NCBI GenBank assembly: GCA_016794505.1
Contig: JAEUJZ010000092.1
Coordinates: forward strand, 62,001-126,000
Source of the DNA: Myxococcales bacterium
Lineage (GTDB): Bacteria > Myxococcota_A > Polyangia > Palsa-1104 > JAEUJZ01
Length of the DNA stretch: 64,000 bases
Direction: 5' to 3'
The translations under genes were made by a program, and so were the position numbers. The notes under the pieces are model-generated. The model was not told the DNA's origin and ran no database searches. It saw nothing but the letters and a program-made list of their open reading frames with translations. Below, one piece after another: positions 16,558 to 34,150 of this stretch; position 1 is the stretch's first letter, and the number at the start of each line of letters is the position of its first letter.

Positions 16558-17385
16558 CTACTTGTCAACGCGACCGTCGCTGCGCAGGAATTCCGGATCG
16601 GTGTGCCAGTCGAAGGTCTTCTGCTGCAGCACGACCGCTTCCAGCAAGCGTCCATCTGCCGCGAAGCGCAACTTCCAGCGCCGCACCATATCGATCGGGC
16701 CGGGAAACGATGGCTGCGTAAACAGCGTTGCCGTCAAGCTGCCATCCCGCAGGGTCTCGACGCGGGGCGCCGCAAACTTGGGTGCGCCGGAGCGACGGAA
16801 CACGGCGGTCGGCTGGTCGAGCACAGGCTCGAACGCGAAGTACACCAAGCGGATAAAGCGCAGGGCGGCTTTTCCGCGATCCGGGCTGTGGCTTTGGGTC
16901 GGGCTGGGCGGTCCGATCCAGGCCGCCGCTGTGTCCGCAAGCGAACGCAGCGCGCCGCCCTCCCAGACGCTCTGTGCGATGCAGCCAAAGGGCTTGTCGT
17001 AGTCGGCATAGCCGTGCTCGCGACCCAGGACACGCATCCCTGGAACCTCGGCCACCGGCCGACTGCAGACCTGGCTTGGTGCCAGCTTGGGCGTCTGCGC
17101 GGTCGCAAAGCGCTCTTCGGGCTGCACGGCCGCCGCGACATCCGCGGCTGGAAGCGCTGCATCGCTCGCGTGTGTCGCCGTGGGCGCTGGCTTCGTCGGT
17201 GCCGCCGCCTGTGGATGGGTAAGCGGGGGCGTGACGCGGGGGCTGCCTGCATCCTGCGGAGGCGACGAGGCCGGCTGTCTACAAGCGGCCGTCGCGCCCC
17301 AGATGAGAAGCCACACCCACCAGCCGAGAGCCCCACAGGGCCACAGCACGAGTCGATTGAGAACCATCCGCTGTGTGTATCGCAT
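16558..17385 (-). CDS. Lipoprotein of unknown function
   Basis: About 275 residues if started at ATG 17385; an ATG at 17367 is equally possible and neither has a good Shine-Dalgarno. The N-terminus has a Trp-rich hydrophobic segment (LGWWVWLLIWGATAAC) ending in a lipobox-like cysteine. A Pro/Ala/Thr-rich linker of about 70 residues follows, then a globular domain with FIRLVYFAFEPVLDQP and WKLRFAADGRLLEAVVLQQK. It is probably anchored to the envelope. No family is recognised. Confidence 0.7.
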   Translation of the reverse strand: MRYTQRMVLNRLVLWPCGALGWWVWLLIWGATAACRQPASSPPQDAGSPRVTPPLTHPQAAAPTKPAPTATHASDAALPAADVAAAVQPEERFATAQTPKLAPSQVCSRPVAEVPGMRVLGREHGYADYDKPFGCIAQSVWEGGALRSLADTAAAWIGPPSPTQSHSPDRGKAALRFIRLVYFAFEPVLDQPTAVFRRSGAPKFAAPRVETLRDGSLTATLFTQPSFPGPIDMVRRWKLRFAADGRLLEAVVLQQKTFDWHTDPEFLRSDGRVDK

Positions 17386-17541: not shown

Positions 17542-19674
17542 TTACGGGGCGAGCGGTTCATTCAAGTGAACTCGGCCATCTACCATCGTATAGCCAGTCG
17601 CGGCGTCCTTATTTAGTGTAACCGGGCGAGCATCCAAATGGATATGCAATTTATCGGGATGCGGGCCATGATGCGGGGCGTGAATGACGCGCTCATTGCC
17701 GTATTTCTTGTTGATCTCCTCGGCCAGATCGTGATCGTTATAGATGGCTCGCCAAGCGAATTTGCCTTCTTCTGTATCCGTCATTTCTGCAGCGGTATTC
17801 AGGTCATCAAAGAACCGCCGCACGGCTGCACGGTCCCAAAATCCGGCGGCGTCTTTATCGAATCCGGCAGAGATAAAAATGTCCGCCGAAAACTCGGCCC
17901 AGCTATGGCCATGGTATGTTCCAATGCTAAACTGGGTATTTAATTCCCGCAATCTCTTAAACAGGACCAGATTTTCTTTGGAAAACGTGCGATACGCTTG
18001 GCTGGCGTGCAGCTCATGCTGAGCCGCTTTGATCTCGCGCTGAAGCTGCTCGCGACGCTTCAGCGTTGCCTCGCGTGTGCCACTGGCCAGCGGCTCGATG
18101 GCCTCGGGTTCATCGGACAACACCAGGGGCTTTGCCTGGCCCGCGATCTCGATCTGCCAGCCGGTCGTCTTGCCGTTTTCATCTTTTTGCTCATGTGCGG
18201 TTGCCGACTTGGCGCCAAAGATAGGCGCTTGCGCTTTCCCCTTCTTGGCGGCAGGATAAACCACGTATTCGCCCATCTTTGCCGATAAATTAGTAAGTTT
18301 AATATTTGCTGCTTTTTCTTTTTTCACAGCACTGAAATCTGATGACCACTCCATGGGCGCCAGATCGGTCTCGACCACGGATTTCTGCGGACTCTTTGCA
18401 TGTACCCGTTTTTTAAAGCGCTGGGTAAATGCGGTAATATCGCGATGCGCGTTATCAAATTTAGATCGCCGCAGCTGCTTCGCGGCATATGGCACTCTTG
18501 TCTCGACATTGATCGTGTAATTTTTACTGGTGGCACTCGGTCCATTGATAACGCCGTAATGTATCAAAATATCCAGAATAGGCTTCAATTCGGCGGCGGA
18601 TTTTATTTGAATACCTGGGATCTCGGCTTGAATGGTTTTCTTTTTTCCGGTTGTTTCCGTCCGTGGCTGCGTCGCGGCGAATAGTTCGTCGATGGTGAAC
18701 TCAAAGCTCTCGTCGGGATGTTGGCAGCGCTTTCCTTCGATCCATGCGATCACGCGCTGCCCGTGCCGCAGCAGCGAGGTTTCCCGTTCCAGCTCGGCAA
18801 CCATTTGCCGCTGCGGCTGGATGGCATTCTTCGCGATGGGGGCAGTCGTCTGCGCGGTGCCCAAGGTCTCGGGGTCGGGGCTGCGATAGATGCCAAACGG
18901 CGCGGCCTGTACTCGACCCAGCGGGCGGCGAGCGCTGCGCGGCGCAGCCTGATCCCCGGCGGTCATGGCGTGCGCGATGGCGTCGGCTTCCTGCTCGGGG
19001 GCGCTGTCCGGTGCGCTGATCGCCGGGCTGGCGCCGCTGCTGGCCCCTTGCTGCTGCGCCGCGTGGACAAGCTCATGGATCAGCAGTCGATCGCCGTCGA
19101 CGGTCCCCGGCCGATACTGGCCAGCGGCAAAGAACAAGTCGCTGCCCTGCGCATACGCGCGAGCACCATATTCAGCCGCGCTTGCCTGTGCCTTGCCGCC
19201 GATGTGGACGCGCACCTGATCGAGACGCGCGCCTGTGTGTTGTTCGACGCGCCGCAGAAGCTCTGCCGGTGGCGCATAGGTCTGTGCGCTGTGCCGGTCG
19301 GCTGCAGGGTGTTCCTCATCGACGGGCGAAGAGGCAAGAAGCGCCGTCGCGCCAGAGACCCCGAGGCGCTGATCACACAGATGACCAAACAGGTGGCTGG
19401 CCATGCCCAGGGTCAGGGCCGGGCTGCCAGCGTCGGTCTGCGTGCCGCTGCGCACGGCTTGCGGGTCGGCAGCTGTCCCGTCGGTGCCGGCGCTGCCTGC
19501 GTGGGGGGCTACGAAGTCATCGGGGAACGGCAGAGCCGACTCTGCTTGCCCGGTCGAATGCGCCGCGGTGCCATCGTCCTCTGCGGCCCATGGGGGGGCC
19601 ATGGCTGGGCTAGCGCCCATGGTGGATCCGCTGGAGTCATCGTCGCTGTGGTGTGCAAACTGAACGTCCTGCAT
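17542..19674 (-). CDS. eCIS-type DUF4157 protein with putative zinc-peptidase C-terminus
   Basis: 710 residues from ATG 19674, with GAGG 7 nt upstream. Residues 1-120 are low-complexity and disordered. Residues about 125-208 form a DUF4157 domain (LDQVRVHIGGKAQASAAEYG, RAYAQGSDLFFAAGQYRPGT) ending in HELVHAAQQQ at 200-209. DUF4157 marks proteins linked to extracellular contractile injection systems. The C-terminal domain has YHGHSWAEFSADIF (His590, Asp598) and later HHGPHPDKLHIHLD (His677, His679). This resembles the metal sites of M15-like peptidoglycan peptidases, but spacing differs by one, so activity is inferred. GC falls sharply from about 18720 leftward. It is divergent from the other DUF4157 gene. 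No immunity gene is evident. Confidence 0.85.
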   Translation of the reverse strand: MQDVQFAHHSDDDSSGSTMGASPAMAPPWAAEDDGTAAHSTGQAESALPFPDDFVAPHAGSAGTDGTAADPQAVRSGTQTDAGSPALTLGMASHLFGHLCDQRLGVSGATALLASSPVDEEHPAADRHSAQTYAPPAELLRRVEQHTGARLDQVRVHIGGKAQASAAEYGARAYAQGSDLFFAAGQYRPGTVDGDRLLIHELVHAAQQQGASSGASPAISAPDSAPEQEADAIAHAMTAGDQAAPRSARRPLGRVQAAPFGIYRSPDPETLGTAQTTAPIAKNAIQPQRQMVAELERETSLLRHGQRVIAWIEGKRCQHPDESFEFTIDELFAATQPRTETTGKKKTIQAEIPGIQIKSAAELKPILDILIHYGVINGPSATSKNYTINVETRVPYAAKQLRRSKFDNAHRDITAFTQRFKKRVHAKSPQKSVVETDLAPMEWSSDFSAVKKEKAANIKLTNLSAKMGEYVVYPAAKKGKAQAPIFGAKSATAHEQKDENGKTTGWQIEIAGQAKPLVLSDEPEAIEPLASGTREATLKRREQLQREIKAAQHELHASQAYRTFSKENLVLFKRLRELNTQFSIGTYHGHSWAEFSADIFISAGFDKDAAGFWDRAAVRRFFDDLNTAAEMTDTEEGKFAWRAIYNDHDLAEEINKKYGNERVIHAPHHGPHPDKLHIHLDARPVTLNKDAATGYTMVDGRVHLNEPLAP

Positions 19675-19928
19675 GGCGAACCTCAACTGGTGGCGATGAA
19701 GGGGGCAGCCGTGGTTCATCGCAAGGTGAATGCCAAGGCCGAAACGGCCGAGGTGGCCAGCGCGCCGGGCCAGGTTGTTGTTGCCAGCGAACGTGGGCCG
19801 TCGGGATCGAGCGACGGCGAGTACGCGACGGCAGCGCCGGGGCGGACCGTCCGAGGCCGGTGGCGGTGGTACATCGCTTGCTGTGGCTCTGCGCGGTCGC
19901 AGTCACCCGCTGCGCGACGAAAGAGCCC

Positions 19929-22181
19929 ATGTCGCAGACAGATAAAACGATCCATTCCCCCGCCGCCCTGACCCAGCATTCAGCGCCGAGCCAAGCCCCG
20001 CAGAGCAGACGCCCAGTGGGCGCCCATGGCCACGAGCACACCGGGCGGCCGAGCTTTTGGCACGGCGCCGGGGGAGCGCCAGACATCGCGGCCCGTGTCT
20101 TGAATCATTGGAGTACGCCCGCTGCGCTGGGAGCGGGGACGCCGTCGCCTTTCGTACCCGGAAGGGCGGACGCAGCAGCGCTGGGGCAGCCTGCGTCCAG
20201 TGGGGCGCCTGGCGGTGCCAGCCCGGCCCAGAACGGCGGGGACGCGGCAGCTTGGCAAGCCAGCTTGCAAACAGCCGAGCCCTTGCAGACTGGGCTTGCC
20301 CTGGACGAGTGCAGCGAAGCTGGGTTTGCTCGCGAGTGGCCATCGGACCGGTCCCCGTTTCTGCCCAGCGGACAAGGCAGCGCGGTTCAGCAGCTCCTGC
20401 TTCCCATGAGCCAGCTCTTTGGTCTGGAGCTTCGCGACGTGCGCCTGACCCCCGCCGGGGACGATGGCCTGGTGCGGGCGGGCCAGGCCGTGGCCACACG
20501 GGACGAGGTTCGCTATGACCCGGCTCGCCTGGATCCCAGCTCGCGCAGCGGGCTGCAGCTGCTCGGGCACGAGCTAGCCCATGTCGTGCAGCAGCGACGC
20601 GGCCAGCAGCAGGCGGATCGCGTGGACGCTGGCCTGGCTGCCCCGACGGGGGAATTCCCCGACGCGGCGTCGACCGACGAAGACTCTGCCCGGCGCCGCC
20701 AGCTAGAGACCGAAGCCGACGAGGCTGGACAGCGGATCGCCGATGGACAAGCCGCCCACGTAGCCAGCGCCGCCCAGACCCCGCTGCGTCAGTTCAAAGA
20801 GACCGTCGATGTGCTCAGCTGGCCGCAGGCCCTGCGCTCCTCTGAGACCTCGGCAGCGACGAAACAAGCGATCTGTACCCAGATTGCGGACAATCGAACC
20901 AAGGTCGATGTCAGCATGCTGCGCAGCGCGAAGAATGGCTATTTCTATGGTGGTAAAGATCTGGCCAAACCCAAGAAAAAGATGGCCCTGGAAAACAAAA
21001 AAGATCGCACGGATGCCGAGCGGGTCATGTTGATTATCGCCAAAGAGCTTGAGAAAGAAGGCGGATATTCTTCGATTAATAGCTATGACAATCAGAAATT
21101 CACCTGGGGACGTGGTTTTTCGGCGCTAGGCGATCTGCCCAAGGTCCTAAAGACGGTCTTTGCGGACGCAAAATTGAGTGCGACCTTTCTTTCGCACGGC
21201 ATTCGCTACAGCACACAATTTGAGATCGTTGATACTCAAAATCAAAGCATTGTTACCGGTGCTGACGCGCTGAATGAATTATCAAAAAATCAGTCCCTGC
21301 TTGGCGTCTTTGTGCACGTGGCCGAGGACACTTCAGCAGAGCCAGGAAGCGACTCGCCAGCCCAGAAAGTCGCCGATGCCCAGTGGGATCAGCTTGAAGC
21401 TGGACCGTTCCGAGCCCCCGATTTTGTGCATGCCTGGAAGGACGATCGGCTGGTGGCCTTTGTCGCTCATTTGGTTCATTGGCTGCCTAAAGTTCCATGG
21501 TCACGCTATGCCGCGGTCACAGATATCGCAGGTGCGCTCGACACCTGGCTGCAGCATATTGGCACAGTCGGTGGAATCACCCATAAAGCGGGGTGTGGCG
21601 CAGTTGTAATCTCCGATTCTGCGCGCAAAAACTTAATGGAGGCTTTCGGTAGCCGCATTGCCGGTGAATACATTACTTCAATTTGTCAATATCCAATCCC
21701 ATATACCAAAGAACAACTCAATACTGAATCGGCTCTCAGTGGCAAGTATCTGTTCTCGAAGGGAGAGACGCCTGGAAAGGATGGTTATTATGTGTACCCT
21801 GACATGCCGAAGATTCATGGAAACGATGGCAAAGAGCAAAACGACGAAACGAGCCAATCGTCCATTTATCACTATTTTCACACCCTACATCAGCTATCGA
21901 TGCCGGACGTGATTGCCAAGCTGGGACAGCGCAGCAGTGCCGAACGCAGCGACTTGTTGGCGCGATACACGTTTGATCCCACGCTGGGCACGCGCTGCCG
22001 GGCGGCCCTGCGCACACTCGCCCTGCAACCCACGAGCGAAGCCGACTTGATTGATGTCGCGGCGGACCCCGACTTTGCTGCGCTGAGCGCCGACGAGCAA
22101 CAGCACCTGCTGGGCCTGATGAAAAAGAAGCTGCCCAAGCCCAAGAAGCCGCCCGCCTCGCCAGGAAGCAAGCGCCAGTAA
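19929..22181 (+). CDS. eCIS-type DUF4157 protein with lysozyme-like region
   Basis: 750 residues from ATG 19929; the frame is open upstream to 19653 but that part is composition-driven and overlaps the divergent gene. A disordered Ala/Gly/Pro-rich N-terminus leads to a shortened DUF4157 domain ending in GHELAHVVQQRRG (His214, His218). The metal-like HExxH is kept. Residues about 366-420 contain EKEGGYSSINSYDNQKFTWG, which resembles the catalytic region of lysozyme-like hydrolases; Glu377 is a candidate catalytic residue (inference). The C-terminus ends in a Lys/Pro tail. The middle part (20880-21900) is much more AT-rich than the DUF4157 part, as in its divergent partner. Confidence 0.83.
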   Translation: MSQTDKTIHSPAALTQHSAPSQAPQSRRPVGAHGHEHTGRPSFWHGAGGAPDIAARVLNHWSTPAALGAGTPSPFVPGRADAAALGQPASSGAPGGASPAQNGGDAAAWQASLQTAEPLQTGLALDECSEAGFAREWPSDRSPFLPSGQGSAVQQLLLPMSQLFGLELRDVRLTPAGDDGLVRAGQAVATRDEVRYDPARLDPSSRSGLQLLGHELAHVVQQRRGQQQADRVDAGLAAPTGEFPDAASTDEDSARRRQLETEADEAGQRIADGQAAHVASAAQTPLRQFKETVDVLSWPQALRSSETSAATKQAICTQIADNRTKVDVSMLRSAKNGYFYGGKDLAKPKKKMALENKKDRTDAERVMLIIAKELEKEGGYSSINSYDNQKFTWGRGFSALGDLPKVLKTVFADAKLSATFLSHGIRYSTQFEIVDTQNQSIVTGADALNELSKNQSLLGVFVHVAEDTSAEPGSDSPAQKVADAQWDQLEAGPFRAPDFVHAWKDDRLVAFVAHLVHWLPKVPWSRYAAVTDIAGALDTWLQHIGTVGGITHKAGCGAVVISDSARKNLMEAFGSRIAGEYITSICQYPIPYTKEQLNTESALSGKYLFSKGETPGKDGYYVYPDMPKIHGNDGKEQNDETSQSSIYHYFHTLHQLSMPDVIAKLGQRSSAERSDLLARYTFDPTLGTRCRAALRTLALQPTSEADLIDVAADPDFAALSADEQQHLLGLMKKKLPKPKKPPASPGSKRQ

Positions 22182-22318: not shown

Positions 22319-23956
22319 TCATGTCGTGCGCGGGTCCCAGATCGCGATGGTGCCGTCATAGCCCGCGCTCGCCACGCTGCCATCGGCGAGCACGACGAGG
22401 CTGCGGACAAAGTTCGGGTGCGATCCAAGCTGCGGCGGCTGCGCCGGCTGTAGGCAAGCACCGACGAGCCGCGTCCGTGCGATGCGCCCATCTTCGCCGG
22501 CTGACAGGACGTGGCCTGACTGCGTTGTGCAGACCGCATAGATCTCGCCGCGATGCACGGCGCAGGTGGCCTGTGGGCGCAGCGGGAAGTCGCCCTCGCC
22601 CTCGGTCAGCCACACCAGGTGACCATCGCTGCAGCCGGCCACGATGCCCGGCGAGCGCTGCCCTGGCTGCGCGTCCAGGCCCGCGCAATCGGCCAAGGCA
22701 TGCACCGCGCCATGACCGAGCGCGCACTCGGCCAGCAGCGACCGACTGGCCAGATCCCACAGGCGCAGGCAGCCATCTTCCCCCGCAGAAAGCAGGCGCC
22801 CTCGCGGACGCGGCAAGAGCGCCCACACCCACCCGCCGCGCGGCGGCAGGACCGACGCTGGATCGAGCGATGGGCCCAGGCGCTGGTGCGGCGGCCGGCC
22901 ATCGAGCGCACGCAGCGACCGACGATCGAACAGATAGATCCCACCATCGGCACAGCCTGCCGCGACGAACGCCGGACGGCAGTCGGCGAAGCTCAGCACG
23001 GCGGCAGGAAGCTCGGCGAGAGGCGTCGATTCGCCGCGCTGCAGATCGTGCAAGAACACCGCATGATCGCGTCCGCCGCTGAGCAGGCGCATCATCGACG
23101 TCGAAGCGCCATCGCTTACAGGGCACAGGCTGCTGATCGAGCCGCGGTGCCCCGTAAAGCAGGCCCGCTGCTCACCGCTTGAACGCTGGAAGATGCGCAG
23201 CGTCCGATCGCGCGAGCCACTGGCCAGCTCGCCGTGCGGCAGCGCTGCCAGCGCAAAGACATAGCCCCGGTGCCCTCGGAGGATCTGCGCTGGCTCGCGT
23301 CGATTGGGATCGCGCGCTGTGGGCTCGATCGCGGCTGCGATGCAGGCGCGCTGATACATCACATCGGTGCGCAGCACGTGCTTTTCGCCCTGGTGGACCG
23401 GCTCGCCGTCGTGCCACAGGCGGTGCTCAAAGACGATGGCCCGTCCGATGCGTGGCGTCACGCCACCCAGCAGGCCGCCGCTGCGCTCGGAGTAAAAGCG
23501 CGTCTGTCCTCCGACCCGCGCCGGATCGTCGTCAAGATAGACCTGCAAGGTGAGGATCGAGCGCCGATCCGGCCCCGGCTCGTGCGCGCCATCTTGATGA
23601 ATGCGAAAGCCCTGGCCATCGCGATAGCGACAAAAACGAAAGCGGCTGTTCAGTCCGCACAGCGTCCAGGTGTTGCCCTCGGCGTCCGTCAGCTGGGCCG
23701 GCAAGAGCGAGCCCAGCTCAGCAAACAGCGCAGAGGCAAGCTCGGCATCGTCGTAGACCCGGCGATCGTTGTTGCGATACGAGGGCGGATAGTCGTCCGC
23801 GGTGGCGCAAAAGCCCAGCGCGCGGGCCTGCTCCTGAAGCAGCTGGCAGCGCTGCGCACTCAGCGCAGCCTCGATCAAGAACACGACGCCTGGGCAGGCA
23901 AAGGGCACGGGCACTCGCTGACGCCCCAGTGCGTGATCCATCGTGCTGCGATCCAT
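22319..23956 (-). CDS. 2OG-Fe(II) oxygenase (prolyl-4-hydroxylase-like) fused to WD40 propeller
   Basis: About 545 residues from ATG 23956, which has GGAGA about 10 nt upstream; ATG 23974 is an alternative and the frame stays open to 24265. Residues about 20-205 form a double-stranded beta-helix oxygenase. The iron triad is His120 and Asp122 (HQDG) with distal His182 (LWHDGEPV), and Arg196 (VLRTD) should bind 2-oxoglutarate. Residues about 215-545 contain seven WD40 blades, e.g. ILRGHRGYVFALA, LLSAGEDGCLRLWDL and VASAGYDGTIAIWDPR. No signal peptide is seen. The propeller may present a protein substrate to the hydroxylase. The fusion is unusual for bacteria. It converges on the DUF4157 gene to its left. 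Confidence 0.9.
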   Translation of the reverse strand: MDRSTMDHALGRQRVPVPFACPGVVFLIEAALSAQRCQLLQEQARALGFCATADDYPPSYRNNDRRVYDDAELASALFAELGSLLPAQLTDAEGNTWTLCGLNSRFRFCRYRDGQGFRIHQDGAHEPGPDRRSILTLQVYLDDDPARVGGQTRFYSERSGGLLGGVTPRIGRAIVFEHRLWHDGEPVHQGEKHVLRTDVMYQRACIAAAIEPTARDPNRREPAQILRGHRGYVFALAALPHGELASGSRDRTLRIFQRSSGEQRACFTGHRGSISSLCPVSDGASTSMMRLLSGGRDHAVFLHDLQRGESTPLAELPAAVLSFADCRPAFVAAGCADGGIYLFDRRSLRALDGRPPHQRLGPSLDPASVLPPRGGWVWALLPRPRGRLLSAGEDGCLRLWDLASRSLLAECALGHGAVHALADCAGLDAQPGQRSPGIVAGCSDGHLVWLTEGEGDFPLRPQATCAVHRGEIYAVCTTQSGHVLSAGEDGRIARTRLVGACLQPAQPPQLGSHPNFVRSLVVLADGSVASAGYDGTIAIWDPRTT

Positions 23957-23979
23957 CGGTTCGGATTTCTCCATCGCAA

Positions 23980-24007
23980 CGGGCCCTGCGCATCGGGCCC
24001 TGCGCAT
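23980..24007. repeat. 14-bp tandem duplication
   Basis: The sequence CGGGCCCTGCGCAT occurs twice head-to-tail, just upstream of the chosen start of the oxygenase-WD40 gene. Because 14 is not a multiple of 3, copy changes would shift any frame read through it. This favours a translation start downstream of the repeat. Confidence 0.8.
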
Positions 24008-24268
24008 CGGTTCAAAACGTGGGGCCGGCCTCGACACCAAAGTCCCGCGTCGCTGCCCTACCCGCCCGTCCAGATCGAAAACGCGCACCAGCGACCGGAC
24101 TGCCTGAGCCCCCAGCCAGGAGGCAGCGATGCCGCAGATCGTATCGCGAAACACGACGTGCTGGGGACCGCGGGTCGAGCGAGGGGTCGGGCCCGGTCTG
24201 CAGCAGGCAGGACGAAGCGCCCCTGGCTCCTTCTTGAAGCCAGAGCGGCCGCGAAAAATATTCACGTA

Positions 24269-24892: not shown

Positions 24893-27800
24893 ATGTCATC
24901 TCTTGTGTTTCGCCTGCTCCGTCCCGCGGACCTGTTGGATCTGCAGGTGACTGCGGTCGGTCTTACGCGTTCGAACGTCGACGGCAAGCCGGTCCTTGTC
25001 GCAGAGCCGGGGGGAAAAGCCCGGCTGATTGTGTCGTTTCCGCCGCAGCACATGGCCGAGAGCGCCACCTACGCCGTCGAGAAGCCGCCTGGCGAGACGA
25101 CGACGCCAAAGGTTCCCGAGTGGTATCGCGATCCGCTGACGGGCGCGTACAGCTACAAGGAAACCGTTGCGCAGCCGGTCGAGTCGGAAGAGGCGGTGCC
25201 GATCACGGTGCGTTCGGCGCAGCGCAGCCGCTTGGTGTTCGCAGTTCCCGACGGAGAGCGTATCGACTTCACGACCGAAGGGGTGCTGTCGGCGCTCCGT
25301 CGGTTCAAGCTCGTCGTGGCCCCAGCGGCCCGGCCGCGACCCAGCGTGCCCCGACTGCCTTTGGCGGGAAGCCGCCCGCTGGCCACGCTGCCTGGCGTGG
25401 GAACGCTTCATCTGTTCGACGACGGCCGCTTCGTCCTGTCCGACGCCGAGAACACGCCGCCGAGCACGCCAGCCCCAAGCACGACGCTGCGGCGCTTGTC
25501 CTTGGGCCGTTCGTTGGCCCTGTCGCGGGCCCTGCTGGGCCGTGAGGCGATTCGCGATTCGTTCGAGACGCTGCCGCCGCTGGAGCGGCTGCCGGATGTG
25601 CGCAAGCCGACGGGCGACGAGACGGCGATCGAAGCCCCGTGGCGGCTGTTTCTGTCCCCAAGTGAGCTGGGAGGCTTTGCCCATAGCTCGCAGCCCGTGC
25701 GCTCGCTGCAGCATCGAAATCTCGTCGAGCTTTGGCACACGCGACTGGGAGTCCGAGCAGAGAGCGGCTCGCGGCGCTCTATCCGCATTGACGAAGGGCG
25801 CCATCCGCAGCGCCTGGTGCGGGCCATCTGGGCGCGCGACCAAGAAAAAATGACCGAGCCGACGTCGCACAGCGATGCCGGCTTTCGCACTTCGCTCGAC
25901 TCGCTGGACCGGTTCATTCTGGTGCGCCAGTCCGCAGGCGACGCGCAGGTCGCCAACGTGCGGCCCGAGCCGATCGACGTGCAGCAGCTTATGTTGTCGT
26001 CGCTGGGGGCTTGGCTGAACCTGCACGGCGTGTGGAACACAGAGCCCTATAGCGAAAGAGAGCTGGCGGGGATCCTGTCGTGGGATCACGTGGCGCCGAT
26101 GGGGCGAGACCAGTTCGTGCGCGTGGTGTATCCGGGCCTGCTGTATCCGTTTGGCCATCGCGCGGCGCTGGTCAAGGTCACCGAGCGCAAGATCGCAAGC
26201 GCAGTCAATCCACAGGCCCGTCTGTATCAGCGCAAGTTCCTGGTGATTGGCGAGCCGGATCGCGGCTACGTCGATCGCGCGTTGCCGTTTCTGCGCGTGT
26301 CGGTGCGACCGCTGACGACGCCGGATCTGGCGGACCCTGGGGCGGCGACAGCGGGTGCAAGCAACGGCGCAATCAGCGGGCAAGAGGTGTTTTGGCCATC
26401 GCTGGCCGCGAACCAGAAGCTGTCGTTTGTGCTGGATGCGCTGGATCAAGACGGGCGCGCGGTGCGGCTGAAGACACCGCTGATCTTCGTCGCAGAGCAC
26501 AAGGCCAAAGACCCAGCGGTGCAGGCCACGCTGAAGACCGAATGGGCCAAGCTGGCTGCCATCGCCGCGGGAGGTCAGCGGATCTCGTTCGCGCCATCGG
26601 AAGAAGATCGCAGCGGCCCCACGACGCTAGAAACGCAGTCGCTCAGCGTCGAGGTCAAGAGCTGGTCCAGCGATGTGATTCCGCGACCGCGTCCGCTGCT
26701 TAAGCAAGCGTCGGTCGTCATCCCGGCGATGCGGCAGCTTACGCCGACGGCTGCTGCGGTCAGCGTCGCCTATGCCGATGGCTACGTCGCGGGGGGCTTC
26801 CAAGGCGGCGCCGAGGTCTTTATGAAGATCGTCGGCGACACCGCGAAAGTCAGCTTCGCGGGCGCCACCGATCGAGCCGGTGGCTTCTTGCAGCCCGATC
26901 TGCCGGTGCGTGGTCTTTCGCGCAAGCTGGGTCTGTCCAGCAATGAGACGGGCGCGTGGCCGCTCTACAACAAAGAGAGCTTTCCGACGGATCTTCTGCC
27001 GAAGCTCTTTGGGCTGATTCCGCTCAGCGAGATTCTAAACCTGGGTGGCCTGGACGATGCGCCGACGTTTGTGCAAGAGCTCAGCGATACGATCTCGACC
27101 TTCCTGCGCGATCTTCAGACGCTGCGAGATCTGCTGGCGCAGGCGATCACGCAAGGCGCTGCGAGTCTTTCTGCGCTGAAGCAAGCGATCCACAACGCCG
27201 TCACGGATCTGCCCGCGGCGATCGAGGCGCTGTTTCAAGCGACGGATTTCGAGTCTGCGAAGACCGCATTTGAAAGCGCGATTGCGGAGCTTCGCGAGAC
27301 GCTGACATCGCTGAAAACGGCGCTCTCTGGCCTGCCCTTGCCGGTTGCGCTCGTCGAAAAAGCAGTCGCCAAGATCGCCAGCCTGCTCGACGTGATGTCC
27401 GACATCGACCGGTTTGTAAAAGAGTGCCTGAGCTTTGCGCAGGGACTCTTGCCGCGCGATGGCAGCGTGCGGGCTCGCTTCGAGTGGCGCGCCCCCATCA
27501 AGCCGTGGCCATCCGCGTCGGCTCCGATCTTTGATCCAGGGGACGAAAACAGCCTGGTGCTGGCGGTGGAAGCGGCGGCGAGCGGCTCGGCTGCGGGCGC
27601 CTATGTGCTGGCAGAGCTGCGCAACTTCCAGCTGAACTTGGTGCCGGGCTTTGAGCTGATGCAGCTGGGCTTTGAGCGCATCGCGTTTCGCTGCGGCACA
27701 GCGCGCTCGCCTGAAGTCGACGTCGTCCTGAAGAACAAAGAGTTCCTCGGGGTCCTTGGCTATCTGGCCAAGCTGTCCGAGTGGATTCCCATGGATGGCT

Positions 27801-28468
27801 TTTCGGATCCGCCATTTTGCGATGTCAGTGCCGAGGGGGTTCGCGTCGGATTCACGCTGGCGCTGCCCAGCATCGCAGTCGGCGTGTTCAGCCTGGAAAA
27901 CATCAGCCTGGGATCGGATATCCACGTCCCGTTCCTAGGCGAAGCGATCACCGTCGGATTCAACTTCTGCAGCCGCGAGAAGCCCTTCGTTCTTACGGTC
28001 TGCTGCCTTGGCGGGGGCGGCTTTGTCTCGCTGCGCTTGTCCGCAGAGCGACTGGTCCTTTTGGAAGCAGCGCTTGAGGCGCGAGCCCAGCTCGGCGTCG
28101 ACTTCGGTGTCGCCTCTGGATCGATCTCGGCTGCCATTGGCGTGTATCTGCGTCTGGAAGGAAAGGGTGGCTCGCTCACCGGCTATTTCCGGCTGCGCGG
28201 CGAGGTCAACGTCCTTGGAATCGTCTCGGCCTCGATCGAGCTGTACTTGGAGCTGGTCTACGAATTCGAGACCGGCAAGCTGGTTGGGCGGGCGCGGCTC
28301 ACCATCGAGGTCGAGGTCTTTTGCTTCAGCGTCTCGGTCTCGTTCGAGGTGGAGCGCCGCTTCGCCGGCTCATCCGGCGACCCAACGTTCCTGGAGCTTC
28401 TCGGCGCCGATGTCAACCAAGCCAACGAGCGCTGGTCGACGTACTGCCTTGCCTTTGCGGGAGCGTAA
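24893..28468 (+). CDS. Giant protein of unknown function, first gene of two-gene operon
   Basis: 1191 residues, started at ATG 24893 after GGAGG. No signal peptide or membrane helix is visible, so it is probably cytoplasmic or exported without a Sec signal. Three regions can be seen. Residues 1-720 are mixed alpha/beta and contain AGATDRAGGFLQPDLPVRGL. Residues about 724-855 are strongly helical and probably coiled coil (LRDLQTLRDLLAQAITQ). Residues about 870-1180 are regular alternating beta strands (GYFRLRGEVNVLGIVSASIE) with several cysteines, resembling a long lipid-binding or barrel-like sheet. I do not recognise a named family. The next gene begins 3 nt after its stop. Confidence 0.85.
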   Translation: MSSLVFRLLRPADLLDLQVTAVGLTRSNVDGKPVLVAEPGGKARLIVSFPPQHMAESATYAVEKPPGETTTPKVPEWYRDPLTGAYSYKETVAQPVESEEAVPITVRSAQRSRLVFAVPDGERIDFTTEGVLSALRRFKLVVAPAARPRPSVPRLPLAGSRPLATLPGVGTLHLFDDGRFVLSDAENTPPSTPAPSTTLRRLSLGRSLALSRALLGREAIRDSFETLPPLERLPDVRKPTGDETAIEAPWRLFLSPSELGGFAHSSQPVRSLQHRNLVELWHTRLGVRAESGSRRSIRIDEGRHPQRLVRAIWARDQEKMTEPTSHSDAGFRTSLDSLDRFILVRQSAGDAQVANVRPEPIDVQQLMLSSLGAWLNLHGVWNTEPYSERELAGILSWDHVAPMGRDQFVRVVYPGLLYPFGHRAALVKVTERKIASAVNPQARLYQRKFLVIGEPDRGYVDRALPFLRVSVRPLTTPDLADPGAATAGASNGAISGQEVFWPSLAANQKLSFVLDALDQDGRAVRLKTPLIFVAEHKAKDPAVQATLKTEWAKLAAIAAGGQRISFAPSEEDRSGPTTLETQSLSVEVKSWSSDVIPRPRPLLKQASVVIPAMRQLTPTAAAVSVAYADGYVAGGFQGGAEVFMKIVGDTAKVSFAGATDRAGGFLQPDLPVRGLSRKLGLSSNETGAWPLYNKESFPTDLLPKLFGLIPLSEILNLGGLDDAPTFVQELSDTISTFLRDLQTLRDLLAQAITQGAASLSALKQAIHNAVTDLPAAIEALFQATDFESAKTAFESAIAELRETLTSLKTALSGLPLPVALVEKAVAKIASLLDVMSDIDRFVKECLSFAQGLLPRDGSVRARFEWRAPIKPWPSASAPIFDPGDENSLVLAVEAAASGSAAGAYVLAELRNFQLNLVPGFELMQLGFERIAFRCGTARSPEVDVVLKNKEFLGVLGYLAKLSEWIPMDGFSDPPFCDVSAEGVRVGFTLALPSIAVGVFSLENISLGSDIHVPFLGEAITVGFNFCSREKPFVLTVCCLGGGGFVSLRLSAERLVLLEAALEARAQLGVDFGVASGSISAAIGVYLRLEGKGGSLTGYFRLRGEVNVLGIVSASIELYLELVYEFETGKLVGRARLTIEVEVFCFSVSVSFEVERRFAGSSGDPTFLELLGADVNQANERWSTYCLAFAGA

Positions 28469-28471
28469 GCC

Positions 28472-31400
28472 ATGGCCACAGAGCGATTTGCCGTCACCGT
28501 TCTTCCTTATTCCGTTGCTGCGGGCGAACCCTTTCACGTCTCGCTCTATGTGTCGCCGCGCCTGTCTCCCGACGGAGGCTCACAGCCGCTGCGGGCGTTT
28601 CCGCTGTTCTGCAACTTCGGTCATGCCATCGCAGAAGACGTCGAGTTCGTCTTGGTCGACGACACCGGGTTTCGCTACAAGATCACGCGCGCATCCGAAG
28701 TGGACCCGACGCTGTGGCCGATGCTGTTTCCGCCGGACACGGTCGTGCGGGAACGACAGGCGTCGCGATTCTCGGGTCGCACCTGGCGCAGCTTCGCCGC
28801 CAAGCGCGTGGCGGATCTGGGCAAGGGGGTTCACTCCCTGAGCACGCTGACCTCGCCGATCGAGCTGCACTCACCGCTGCGCTCCCCGCTGTCGCTGGGT
28901 CTTAAGAAGGTGCTGCAGCAGCAGTTCAAGCTGTCCCCGGATCGGCATGCCTATGACGAGCGCGAGGTGACAGAGCGCCTGGACACGCTGCTCATGCGGC
29001 GAATCGAGCTACGCGGGGTGAATCCCGTGGGCCTGTCTACATCGACCCACACCCCAACGGTCGACGAGCTCTTGCTCGGAGCGCTGCTGGATAGCCACGA
29101 AGTCCGACGGTTTTATGAGCGCAAAGAGACAAACAATCCCTTCTGTGCCCGGCCCAATCCGTCGGCCGTGCGTGCAGCGCTGCCCAAGCCAGCCCCCGAC
29201 TTTCACGAACGACTGTCGCTGCTCAACGACCATCCAGAGCTTCTGCGCCTGATGGGGCTCGTGATCGATCTGAAGGTCGACGCCAGTCAGCTCGACACGC
29301 TGCGCCGGGCCCAGTGGCTGCAGGCGTCGATACACTTCGCTGGGCCGCGTCGCCCAGGTCTGCAGCTTCCGCCATCGCGTACGCTGGTCAAGGTCTCGGG
29401 CCAGGCGCTGCTGACGGTGCCCGAGTCGCAGGACTTCGCGCTGGGTCGCCTGCGGCTCGGGGACAGCGAGCGCTTTGCGGTGCTCGATGTCGATCCCGAT
29501 GCCAGCGGCATCAAGCAGGATCGCTTTGTCTGGACACTGCCGCGCCTGTGGAAATTGGAACAGACCGGAGAGCCGGTTAACGCCGCGCCACCGACCATTC
29601 GCTCGACGGGGTTTACCGTGGTGCGCAACGGTCGGCACGAGCTTGTGCAAGCGCGCGTCGAGGCAGCCAAAGCCAAGGATGCAGCGCTTGAGTCTGCCGG
29701 CCTTGCTCTGCAAACCGAAGACCTGCTGCGCGGCTACCGCGTCGAGGTGTACGACCACCAAGCGCACCGCTGGTTTTCGCTGCATCAGCGCAAGTCGGTT
29801 CTGCGCGTCGGGCAAAAGACTGTGTCCACCAGCATGGATGGCTTTGTTCGGACTGGCGCGGTGTCTGAGACGAGCGGCGTTCCCAATAGCGATCTCTATG
29901 TCCACGAGGCGCTGTTTGGCTGGGAAGGCTGGAGCTTGTCCGTGCCCTATCCCGGCCGGACGCTACGCCACGAAGGCGGCAGCGAGGCGTTCTATGACGG
30001 CAGCGATGGCGCAAGCGGCTCACTGGTCCTGGCGCAGCACGATGTCGTGCCGGGTTCGTTGCCGCGCTTGCGCTATGGCCGAAGCTATTCATTTCGCGCC
30101 TGGACCGTGGATCTGGCGGGCAACAGTGCCCCCCATACGCTGACGCCGCGTCCGCCGGTTGTTCCGCGGTCGCCTCTTCCGCCTCTTCATCTGCCGGATT
30201 CGCCTGTGCCTCCGACGGAAGCACCGCCTGTGTCGTCGCGTCTGCCCTTGCCAGCCCGCAACGCAGCCGACGCTCCATGGCTGGCCGCGCTGCGATCGTT
30301 GGCCAAGGCAGAGCTTGCAGGACCCCAGCTTGCGGTGTCGTTCGCTCAGGATGCGAGCGGAGCTAGCTCGGCTCCCCTTGTGATCACCGGCCAGCCAGCC
30401 GTCGATCGCTTCATTGGCGATCGGCTGTCGGCGGGCATCGCTCCGCTAGAGTTTCGCCGCGCAGGGGTCCAGCGCCGCGAGCAGGTCACGCGCTCGGTTG
30501 CAGCGGTCCTGCAAGGCACGGCACCGCTGGTTTCGGATACCGCAGCCTGGTCGACCGAGGCGCTTTCGTCGCTGAGCAACCACGTCGCCGTGCTGGATCC
30601 CAGCGTATCGCTGGAGGGCCGCGCAGCGCTGACGCTGGATACGGTGACGGCACCGCAGCCGTTTCTGCGCTGGGCCTCGGTGTCACACCCGGTGGTGGTG
30701 GCGCGTCGACGCTTCAGCGAAGGCGAGTCCCTGCATCACGTCGTCATCCGCAGCCGCGTGGTCGAGACCGAGGGCGGTCAGCTTGTCGTCGAGCCGTGGA
30801 GCGAGACGCCAGGTCAGCCCGGCGATCATGGCTATCGTGCGCAGAGCGAGCGCCACTTGCTGCCGCCCAAGACGACGCAGAATGAGGCCGAGCGACACGG
30901 CTGCTTTGACTTCGCGATCGGCTCGCAGGACAAGGTCAATCATCAGCGGGCGTTTCAGATGGCTCTGCGCGAAAGCGGGACGCTGCTCGATGTCGACGTG
31001 CCCGATCTGAACGACCCAGGCGTGCGGCACAGCCAGTCGGGGATCGCGCTTGTGAATCCAAACCCGTCGCAGCCCATCGACCTCGCGACGCGAAAACGAG
31101 ACGAGGCGCTGCCCCAGGGGAGCTATGTCGTTCACGACACCGACTCGCTGCGAGTGCCGTGGCTGCCCGATCCGCTGGCGGCCGGGGTTACGCTGACGTT
31201 TCCCGACGCCAACGCCGACCGCGCCATTCGCTGGCCGCTGAATATCGAGAGCGTCACGGTTCCCTATTCCGGCACCTGGCCCGAGCCGATGTCGTATCGC
31301 TTGATGCTCACCCATGGCGCCCAGCTTGCCGCGAACGTACAGGGGGCGGTGCTGCAGTTTGCGCTGCCTCCCGCGGCAGCCCTGCGTCTGCGATCTTCGT

Positions 31401-33034
31401 CGCAGCTCAGCGATGAAGCGCTGGCTGTGCTTGGCCCGTGGCAGATGCTGCCCGACGCTGCGCGGTCGCAGCGCGTGCTTCAGGAAGCCGCCAAGGATGG
31501 CTGGCTGTGGTCGCTCACACCGGGCGAAGACATGCAGCTTGTCCACGCGGTACAGCGTCCCATCGCGCGGCCGCGTCCGACGATCATTCTGCCGGTTCGT
31601 CAACCCGGAAGCACCACCGTGACCCTCGCGGGGGTGGTCGACTGCGATGGACCCAGCACAGGTCGGCTCGACATCGAGGCCAGCTGGACGGATCAAGTTG
31701 ACGACGTGGGACAGCACGCGCCGTCGCAGCAGAAGCTCTCGGGACACGTGCTTGGCTTCACGCTCGATCGCGACGAAGACTTTGTCGTGCTTCACGGTGT
31801 AAACGGCAGCGTTCCGGTGCCGACTGGCGAGACCCTGCGGGTTCACGCAGCCAATCACGCGCTGGGCGATACCCGACACCGCAGGATTCGTTACACCTTC
31901 CGCGGGACGACGCGCTTCAAGGAGTATTTCGCTCCCGATGTCTATGCCAACGACACACCCTATGTCGATTCTGAGGCCAAGGAAGTGTCGGTGCCGGCCA
32001 GCACTCCGCCCGCGACGCCAGAGGTCCTGCAGGTGATGCCGCTGTTCCGCTGGGAAGAAGGGCCCGAGCCCGATCAGCCGTTTGCGTTCCGACGAACACG
32101 ACGAGCGGGCCTGCGACTGTATCTCGCCCGACCTTGGTTTTCGTCGGGCAATGACGAAAAGCTGGCGGTCCTGCTCGCGCCGCCCGCCGGAGCCGAGGCA
32201 GGCTCCGTCAGTGAGTGGGGTGCCGATCCGGCGTGGAAGCAGCGCGGCCCAGCCAAGCGCGCCATGGCTGCAGAGCTGGATTCCTTCCTGCATGCAATCG
32301 GCGCCGATGATCGCCAGGTCCCCGCTGGGCCCTGTGCTGCACCGCGCGTGGTCACAAACGAGCGCTTCCCCAAAGGCGTATACGTGCTGCCGTACTCGCC
32401 GGAATACAACCCAGACCGCGAGCTGTGGATGGTTGACATCGGCATTCGACCCGGCCCAACGCTGTGGCCGTTTGTGCGGCTGCAGGTGGCTCGCTATCAG
32501 CAGGAATCGCTGCCTGGTTGCGAGCTGTCAACGTCGGTGCGCTGCGACTTTGCGCTGCTCCCCCCCGAGCGAAGCTTCACGCTGGCGCGACCGGATGATC
32601 AAACAGCGCGCGTGGTGGTGAGTGGTCCAATCGCTCTCGGGCGGGACGGTCTTACGAGCTTCGCGCGAAGCGCACGCGATGGAAAAATCCTGCCCCAGGA
32701 GCTGCATCAGGCCATCGCGGAAAATCGCATCCTCAAGGCACGCTTGGAGCGTCGAGATCCCGGACAGCGGTCCGATCTGGCGTGGCAGACGGTTCAAGCC
32801 GTCGAGCTGACCGTCGAGGGCTATGACCTTGCCAGCCATCACGTGTCGTGGGTCGGCTCGCTTACGCTGCCGAAGAATGTGGCGGCCGCGCAGCCCGGAC
32901 ACAGCCACGAGTTTCGCGTCACCGTTGAAGAAGAGGAGATCCTGCCGGCCGACTACGAAGGCCCCCCTCTCGCCGTCGTTACCACGCAGGGCTCGGCCCG
33001 TCGCACCGTCTACGCCGATACCATGGCCCTATAG
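28472..33034 (+). CDS. Giant protein of unknown function, second gene of operon
   Basis: 1520 residues; ATG 28472 lies 3 nt after the preceding stop with GGGAG in the overlapping region, so the two genes are translationally linked. No signal peptide is present. It appears beta-rich with many short sheet-like domains. A recognisable stretch is LRYGRSYSFRAWTVDLAGNS at about 534-553, followed by a Pro-rich linker (residues about 558-590). The C-terminal 400 residues again alternate strands and loops. No catalytic motif is evident. The size, operon link and lack of enzyme motifs suggest a structural or scaffold pair, but this is inference. Confidence 0.85.
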   Translation: MATERFAVTVLPYSVAAGEPFHVSLYVSPRLSPDGGSQPLRAFPLFCNFGHAIAEDVEFVLVDDTGFRYKITRASEVDPTLWPMLFPPDTVVRERQASRFSGRTWRSFAAKRVADLGKGVHSLSTLTSPIELHSPLRSPLSLGLKKVLQQQFKLSPDRHAYDEREVTERLDTLLMRRIELRGVNPVGLSTSTHTPTVDELLLGALLDSHEVRRFYERKETNNPFCARPNPSAVRAALPKPAPDFHERLSLLNDHPELLRLMGLVIDLKVDASQLDTLRRAQWLQASIHFAGPRRPGLQLPPSRTLVKVSGQALLTVPESQDFALGRLRLGDSERFAVLDVDPDASGIKQDRFVWTLPRLWKLEQTGEPVNAAPPTIRSTGFTVVRNGRHELVQARVEAAKAKDAALESAGLALQTEDLLRGYRVEVYDHQAHRWFSLHQRKSVLRVGQKTVSTSMDGFVRTGAVSETSGVPNSDLYVHEALFGWEGWSLSVPYPGRTLRHEGGSEAFYDGSDGASGSLVLAQHDVVPGSLPRLRYGRSYSFRAWTVDLAGNSAPHTLTPRPPVVPRSPLPPLHLPDSPVPPTEAPPVSSRLPLPARNAADAPWLAALRSLAKAELAGPQLAVSFAQDASGASSAPLVITGQPAVDRFIGDRLSAGIAPLEFRRAGVQRREQVTRSVAAVLQGTAPLVSDTAAWSTEALSSLSNHVAVLDPSVSLEGRAALTLDTVTAPQPFLRWASVSHPVVVARRRFSEGESLHHVVIRSRVVETEGGQLVVEPWSETPGQPGDHGYRAQSERHLLPPKTTQNEAERHGCFDFAIGSQDKVNHQRAFQMALRESGTLLDVDVPDLNDPGVRHSQSGIALVNPNPSQPIDLATRKRDEALPQGSYVVHDTDSLRVPWLPDPLAAGVTLTFPDANADRAIRWPLNIESVTVPYSGTWPEPMSYRLMLTHGAQLAANVQGAVLQFALPPAAALRLRSSSQLSDEALAVLGPWQMLPDAARSQRVLQEAAKDGWLWSLTPGEDMQLVHAVQRPIARPRPTIILPVRQPGSTTVTLAGVVDCDGPSTGRLDIEASWTDQVDDVGQHAPSQQKLSGHVLGFTLDRDEDFVVLHGVNGSVPVPTGETLRVHAANHALGDTRHRRIRYTFRGTTRFKEYFAPDVYANDTPYVDSEAKEVSVPASTPPATPEVLQVMPLFRWEEGPEPDQPFAFRRTRRAGLRLYLARPWFSSGNDEKLAVLLAPPAGAEAGSVSEWGADPAWKQRGPAKRAMAAELDSFLHAIGADDRQVPAGPCAAPRVVTNERFPKGVYVLPYSPEYNPDRELWMVDIGIRPGPTLWPFVRLQVARYQQESLPGCELSTSVRCDFALLPPERSFTLARPDDQTARVVVSGPIALGRDGLTSFARSARDGKILPQELHQAIAENRILKARLERRDPGQRSDLAWQTVQAVELTVEGYDLASHHVSWVGSLTLPKNVAAAQPGHSHEFRVTVEEEEILPADYEGPPLAVVTTQGSARRTVYADTMAL

Positions 33035-33310: not shown

Positions 33311-34150
33311 CTACTCGCTCGAAAGCTCGCCGTAGAGCGCCGGCAGGAACGAGGCCAGGTGGGCCATTTCCTGCGAGGCGTGGACCATCAGATCCTGCGC
33401 ATCCTGGCGCGACGGTCTTTTTAGGCGGCGAGCCAGCTTCGACAGCCAGTCGCCCATGGGATGCTGCGTGCGCAGGCGCGCCGCATGGCCGCCGATCCAG
33501 AAACGACAGCGCATCTCGCTGCCGCCGGGCACGCGACGGACGTGATGCACCAGATAGCCGATCTGCAGCGGCTGTGCGACGAAGCCGATGCGCGCACAGA
33601 CCAGTGTGGCCTGCTCGGCATCGGCGATGCGGGACGCATCGAAGCCCAGCTCAGACGGCGCGATGAACGAAATGGCGACGGCGTTGAGCTGGCTGCCGAT
33701 GTATTCATGCACAAACGAGGTGCGGCCGACATAGCGGGCGCGGCCGGTCTGCGTCGGGGAATCGCGGTCGCCGAACTCGGCATTGACGTGCGCGCGTGGG
33801 TGCCAGAGCTTGTAGCGCTGCGGCTCGCCGTTGTGCCACCAGAACCACCAGTCGACCATCTTGGGCACGGTGCCGGGCATCGGCGTCGTAAGCGCGATGT
33901 GCAGCGTGCCGTCTTCGGCGAAGCCATAGCCTTCTTCGATAGGCTGGGGGCCGTCGAGCAGAAGCTCATGCGCCTGCGCGAGCCCTGGGACCAGCGGTGG
34001 CGGCAGTGGGCCGACGAGCAGCGCCTCGTTCGTCGCGGCAGAGAGCGGCGCGAGCTGCGGGTTCCAGAACTTCGCATAGGGCTTGTCGACGAGATCTCCG
34101 GGGCGCATGCCCAGGTACAAAGGACGGCTGGGGTTTGGGTGTCGCATCAT
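33311..34150 (-). CDS. Phloretin/DAPG hydrolase-like enzyme (PhlG family)
   Basis: 279 residues from ATG 34150 (GAGG just upstream). The family signature DWWFWWHNGEPQRYKLWHPRAH is present in the range 101-121. PhlG-type enzymes use zinc to hydrolyse the carbon-carbon bond between an acyl group and a phloroglucinol ring. The expected ligands are visible: His117 (LWHPR), Glu149 (VHEYIG), and the pair His257-x3-Glu261 (VHASQEM), with spacing close to that of PhlG. It follows the flavin oxidase gene by about 54 nt, so the two probably form an operon acting on an aromatic or acyl-phenol compound. The true substrate is unknown. Confidence 0.85.
   Translation of the reverse strand: MMRHPNPSRPLYLGMRPGDLVDKPYAKFWNPQLAPLSAATNEALLVGPLPPPLVPGLAQAHELLLDGPQPIEEGYGFAEDGTLHIALTTPMPGTVPKMVDWWFWWHNGEPQRYKLWHPRAHVNAEFGDRDSPTQTGRARYVGRTSFVHEYIGSQLNAVAISFIAPSELGFDASRIADAEQATLVCARIGFVAQPLQIGYLVHHVRRVPGGSEMRCRFWIGGHAARLRTQHPMGDWLSKLARRLKRPSRQDAQDLMVHASQEMAHLASFLPALYGELSSE

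Follow-up and report, generated by a model that had tools for sequence, protein, structure and literature searches.

The window, a stretch of 64,000 nucleotides from a Myxococcales bacterium, contains a divergent pair of genes whose products are probably orphan cargo of an eCIS: each would combine a delivery domain with a peptidoglycan-cutting tail, a LAS endopeptidase in protein 1 and a glycosidase in protein 2, and would be injected into bacteria. We give this reading a probability of roughly 0.6. It is carried by the eCIS_core (DUF4157) domain of both proteins, by a step in base composition inside both genes, by an eCIS locus elsewhere in the genome, by a cargo swap seen in relatives, and by the linkage of the protein 2 tail family to injection loci. 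From these observations we infer that the two proteins are loaded into a particle, that their tails are catalytic and that the prey is bacterial.

The gene pair and its composition step

Protein 1 is encoded on the reverse strand (17542 to 19719, 725 aa from the ATG at 19719) and protein 2 on the forward strand (19929 to 22181, 750 aa from the ATG at 19929), both assigned from the open reading frame and its Pfam match; the divergent DUF4157 pair of the preliminary description is indeed present at these positions. Protein 1 has two possible starts, since an alternative ATG at 19674 would give 710 aa, and the reading frame of protein 2 is open from 19653, upstream of its ATG. The intergenic gap, previously given as 254 bp, has that length with the start at 19674, but is 209 bp (19720 to 19928) with the start at 19719. 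A recent duplication of proteins 1 and 2 was rejected, given that they produce no mutual blastp alignment (E 1e-3). Searches by tblastn and blastn gave no support for a plasmid or phage origin of the gene pair.

The eCIS_core domain of protein 1 (PF13699, E 2.8e-22, 79.1 bits, aa 151-226) lies at 19042 to 19269 on the reverse strand, with the HELVH codons starting from 19077, and that of protein 2 (E 5.6e-9, 36.5 bits) at 20403 to 20603 on the forward strand, with the HELAH codons from 20568. Both scores are above the gathering cut-off of 22 bits, and the two HExxH-type ends described earlier are intact. The genome holds 11 eCIS_core genes in all, spread over nine contigs, and in the long ones the N-terminal modules of the proteins align mutually at 27 to 48% identity. 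Their C-termini do not align, except for a trio (contigs C82, C38 and C85) whose tails match the NlpC/P60 part of a tail hub-hydrolase (PDB 8v3w, E 1.6e-4). One further eCIS_core protein (L038:3719-6754, 1011 aa) has a very acidic N-terminal stretch and, after the core, many repeats of the GLKSLGGKAL type; it shares 34% identity with protein 2 over 175 aa.

The question arises as to which part of these proteins is the toxin. The HExxH-bearing eCIS_core might itself be a toxic metalloprotease, which the C-termini would merely target or stabilise. None of the 11 eCIS_core proteins of the genome has lost the motif, and VgrG2b, a periplasmic T6SS toxin, emerges from the literature on DUF4157 and peptidoglycan (PMC6899460). 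However, the C-termini possess conserved putative active sites of their own and are swapped while the core stays, and the toxicity of the eCIS toxin Cgo1 is reported, in the passage of PMC11297309 that cites it, to be independent of the metalloprotease motif. We therefore regard a toxic core as very improbable, and place the activity of the proposed eCIS cargo in the tails.

Measured per block of 50 codons, GC content is 0.64 to 0.74 over the N-terminal 350 to 400 codons of proteins 1 and 2, and mostly 0.43 to 0.57 in the C-terminal parts, with one block at 0.62 in each gene. As controls we took 100 other genes, all 400 codons or longer, from 18 loci of the same genome; the best N-minus-C step is 0.172 and 0.170 in the window pair, against a control maximum of 0.110. 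The drop that had been noticed in both C-termini is thus real and exceeds that of every control gene. When the nine eCIS_core genes of at least 400 codons were compared in the same way, seven had a step (0.17 to 0.28) larger than all 100 controls (Mann-Whitney p 5.8e-7). Because seven of the nine long genes surpass the controls, while N-terminal modules align and C-termini mostly do not, the window pair exemplifies a pattern found across the genome, in which a host-like delivery module is followed by AT-rich cargo. The composition step suggests that module exchange occurred in the window genes themselves, and recombination may have placed the AT-rich cargo halves behind a GC-rich delivery module that was already resident. 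Alternatively, relaxed selection instead of transfer could account for the low GC of these halves.

Injection machinery and a module swap in relatives

The contig that contains the window (C42, 222 kb) has no sheath, tube or baseplate gene, so that the earlier statement that no sheath gene is adjacent extends to the entire contig. A search of the genome for eCIS structural genes, proposed in the preliminary description, found a complete locus on contig C12, comprising a sheath, three gp19-like tubes, CIS_tube, a Phage_base_V spike with an OB domain, gp25, a tape measure and an AAA+ gene; the absence of such a locus, which would have spoken against injection, is not what we observe. Two other contigs carry further loci, one (C178, L046-L047) with two different sheaths, four gp19-like tubes, Pvc16_N and a GPD hub, and the other (C95) with a sheath, a tube and a hub.

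In two relatives, G271 and G245, an eCIS operon orthologous to that of C12 (sheath 73% and first tube 80% identical) ends, on its 3' side, with a relative of the protein 2 tail, hereafter cargo 2. Counting from the tape measure, this relative comes third in G271 and second in G245. It also lies downstream of an eCIS_core gene, immediately next to it in G245 and two genes on in G271. The cargo regions of the two operons are about 95% identical in DNA over 10 kb, and the lysozyme-like gene keeps 95% identity along its whole length. The neighbouring eCIS_core genes (L062:16351-17604 and L065:13271-14944), by contrast, share 375 bp at 93.9% identity and then no longer match; beyond the shared part, GC drops from about 0.70-0.75 to 0.53-0.67. 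The pair G271/G245 thus shows cargo being exchanged within an eCIS operon while the module in front of it stays constant. The N-terminal leader appears to be shuffled too, since the G245 gene matches a different G271 gene at 81% over its first 167 bp. The preliminary description had proposed a shared delivery domain with exchanged C-termini, and the eCIS locus in the genome, the GC step in seven of nine genes and this swap all bear it out.

Of 192 genomes sampled from the class, 42 have both eCIS_core and CIS_tube, 28 have eCIS_core only, 5 CIS_tube only and 117 neither (Fisher p 3.5e-18). Twelve of them have at least ten eCIS_core genes, and 11 of these twelve also have CIS_tube. The window pair is unlinked to any eCIS locus, and this, together with the 28 genomes having eCIS_core without CIS_tube, counts against the injection of proteins 1 and 2. 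Both observations would rather suit enzymes of predation or autolysis that are secreted or released by lysis, with eCIS_core as a mere scaffold. The number of eCIS_core genes goes strongly with the presence of CIS_tube, and cargo 2 relatives lie inside orthologous eCIS operons; neither observation fits this scenario, which we hold to be very improbable.

In the preferred reading of injected cargo, proteins 1 and 2 would be expressed from scattered sites, away from the eCIS operon, and the disordered N-terminus and eCIS_core of each would recruit it to the particle or help in its loading. Loading would take place into a particle of the C12 type, or possibly into those of C178 or C95, and would be followed by injection into other bacteria.

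The two proposed cargo domains

The cargo domain of protein 2 is AT-rich, occupies 20781 to 22178 on the forward strand and belongs to a lysozyme-like family linked to contractile injection loci. Its putative catalytic patch, E-GGYSSIN-SYD-NQKF-TWGRG (21057 to 21113, forward strand), begins at E377 in the 750-aa numbering and is conserved in 11 to 12 relatives. Members of the lysozyme superfamily have a catalytic Glu followed by a hairpin with Y/W-D and T/S-x-G. The relatives of cargo 2, recovered at 18 to 28% identity in searches of the class and phylum, keep the Glu, then (I/M/L/V)(N/Q)(T/S)(Y/W)D, then T/S-x-G, with members carrying E...NTYD...TWGxG, as read from an alignment (A10) of 11 sequences. 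The family thus has the Glu and hairpin pattern, as a motif likeness alone.

Gene company points the same way. Several relatives carry PG_binding_1, and one of these (L055) also has an amidase-like segment, recognised by eye. Six of the family's 11 loci adjoin contractile-injection genes: in addition to the two operons above, a relative lies near a VgrG-type gene (GPD, Phage_base_V, Gp5 C-terminal domain) in G261, G179 (contig C123) and G154, and a second copy in G271 is located about 6.5 kb from a sheath/tube cluster. In the eCIS operons, separate genes encode the eCIS_core and the lysozyme-like domain; in the window both are part of one polypeptide, a correspondence that supports a functional link between them.

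Cargo 2 had no significant match in Pfam, NCBIfam, PHROGs, PADLOC or PDB sequences, and its C-terminus belongs to a family that is absent from Pfam and PDB by sequence. Viral contigs, scanned also for the ESGG...GMAQF subfamily, contained no relatives; tblastn against phages and plasmids gave chance matches only, and blastn against plasmids none. AlphaFold, from the single sequence, reached a pLDDT of 36. The lysozyme-like patch announced earlier is therefore upheld as a conserved E..GGYSSINSYD motif with PG-binding fusions and injection-gene linkage, but not as a fold, and the lysozyme-like reading, supported in part, relies on motif and gene company.

The cargo domain of protein 1, also AT-rich, covers aa ~292-725 (17545 to 18846, reverse strand). 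It has a single clear relative, on contig LNFB01000095 of a deltaproteobacterial MAG (L027/L061), with homology across most of the domain and 42 to 46% identity in the best-matching stretch; a genome scan for further relatives gave one, which was this same locus. In the relative (L075:9390-12500), the domain sits behind hemopexin repeats. The residues H605-x7-D613...H684-G-P...D689...H692-x-H694 (17638 to 17907, reverse strand) form a LAS-like set: H605, D613, H684, D689, H692 and H694 are invariant between the two members and come in the same order as in LAS peptidases, which the predicted order of helices and strands also fits. The downstream HxH motif is HIH in both, and the H-x7-D spacing, likewise found in both, is one residue longer than the H-x6-D of the M15/M74 relatives that were fetched.

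The profile comparisons are less favourable. With hhalign against M15_4 and M74, using sequences taken from relatives, scores were within those of shuffles; the best local M74 alignment is in the right register on HxH, but its score is reached by about 4 of 100 shuffles, and with global alignment by 17 of 200. A profile search with the catalytic part gave weak extra matches (E 0.01 to 0.1) that look like chance, and nothing significant was found for cargo 1 in Pfam, NCBIfam, PHROGs, PADLOC or PDB sequences. AlphaFold, run from two sequences, gave a pLDDT of 50, so that the structural and profile check suggested earlier for the C-termini (50 and 36) established neither a peptidase nor a lysozyme fold. 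As for the HxH and H..D cluster attributed to protein 1, it is present and conserved in the relative, but the M15 label lacks significant profile or fold support. To judge from the residue pattern, the odds are roughly even that cargo 1 is a zinc-dependent peptidoglycan endopeptidase of LAS type.

An alternative is that both proteins are eCIS cargo whose C-termini act in the cytoplasm of the target, eukaryotic or bacterial, the wall-enzyme motifs being superficial. The C-termini of most DUF4157 toxins are unannotated, and many of these toxins have other targets (PMC11297309); the fusion partner of the cargo 1 relative consists of hemopexin repeats rather than wall-binding domains, and AlphaFold gives neither cargo a supported fold. 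Against it, the Glu patch is kept across cargo 2 relatives, some of which have PG_binding_1 and one an amidase-like domain, and three other eCIS_core proteins of the genome have NlpC/P60-like tails. We consider a cytoplasmic target unlikely, though a serious competitor. If the tails are instead wall enzymes, as we favour, that of protein 2, a glycosidase resembling the lysozyme superfamily, would break the glycan strands of the prey wall, and that of protein 1, a probable zinc-dependent LAS-type endopeptidase, would break its peptide crosslinks.

Both genes had been described as lacking an adjacent immunity gene. This holds for protein 2, after which there is no co-directional candidate, but not fully for protein 1: a co-directional ORF (16558 to 17367, reverse strand), lying 72 to 174 bp downstream of the gene, has a lipoprotein-type N-terminus (WLLIWGATAAC). 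This predicted lipoprotein has no Pfam match and no relative in the fetched loci, and it could be the immunity gene of protein 1.

Relation to known toxins and further features of the window

The toxin architecture is a known design, while the two cargo domains are undescribed. DUF4157-fused eCIS toxins have published precedent (PMC8213781), and the EATs and PVC-metallopeptidase proteins (PMC8213781, PMC11297309) share an N-terminal eCIS_core with HExxH, a long linker, a C-terminal toxin domain and an eCIS in the genome. The window pair differs from EATs in being off-operon, whereas one study places 88% of known EATs no more than ten genes from the eCIS operon (PMC11297309), and in its 11 scattered copies, C-termini absent from Pfam and strong intragenic GC step. 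Cargo directed at the cell wall is shared with EAT10 and the pesticin-type eCIS peptidoglycan hydrolases (PMC8213781); EAT10, however, is without DUF4157, and the domain families of both differ from the window cargo. One wall-cutting eCIS toxin was more toxic in the periplasm, and many of the tested EATs are without immunity genes (PMC8213781).

C-terminal exchange behind a conserved module, as observed in G271 versus G245, recalls polymorphic toxins, from which the window pair differs by having no confirmed immunity gene and by its proposed delivery in phage-tail-like particles. Cargo 2 relatives near VgrG-type genes resemble the T6SS lysozyme-type effectors encoded beside VgrG, whereas cargo 2 itself is fused to eCIS_core and not encoded beside VgrG. 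LAS metallopeptidases (MEROPS M15, M74/MepA) have the same order as cargo 1 (H..D, helix, strand, helix, HxH), from which cargo 1 departs in its H-x7-D spacing and in a profile similarity that is not significant.

eCIS cargo is mostly unknown, and the question whether some eCIS kill bacteria is still open. This genome, which combines a complete eCIS with eleven eCIS_core proteins and has several tails resembling cell-wall hydrolases, makes the antibacterial (predation) hypothesis directly testable, and the G271/G245 swap, which separates exchangeable cargo from a constant delivery module, can guide cargo finding in other genomes. A wider proposal, which we put forward tentatively and at somewhat less than even odds, is that cargo 2 founds an undescribed lysozyme-like family common to T6SS-type (VgrG-linked) and eCIS machines of the phylum. 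Genomes would hold off-operon sets of eCIS_core proteins, numbering 11 in this genome and at least 27 in several others, in which recombination replaces the AT-rich cargo while the loading module stays fixed; a single type of particle could then deliver many wall-cutting enzymes against bacterial prey.

With regard to the size of such sets, some of the genomes G018, G027, G052, G072, G098 and G108 have at least 27 eCIS_core matches, about the most that the search counts per genome and above the 18 predicted EATs of Moorena producens (PMC11297309). Elsewhere in the window, a gene convergent to protein 2 (22319-24265) fuses a 2OG-Fe(II) oxygenase domain to WD40 repeats. It is followed by two adjacent, very large ORFs (24893-33034, 1191 and 1520 aa) that have no Pfam match above cut-off and no relatives in the fetched loci. 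Finally, a gene with a DAPG hydrolase (PhlG-type) domain (33311-34150, E 8e-60) lies beside a gene for an FAD-binding oxidase.
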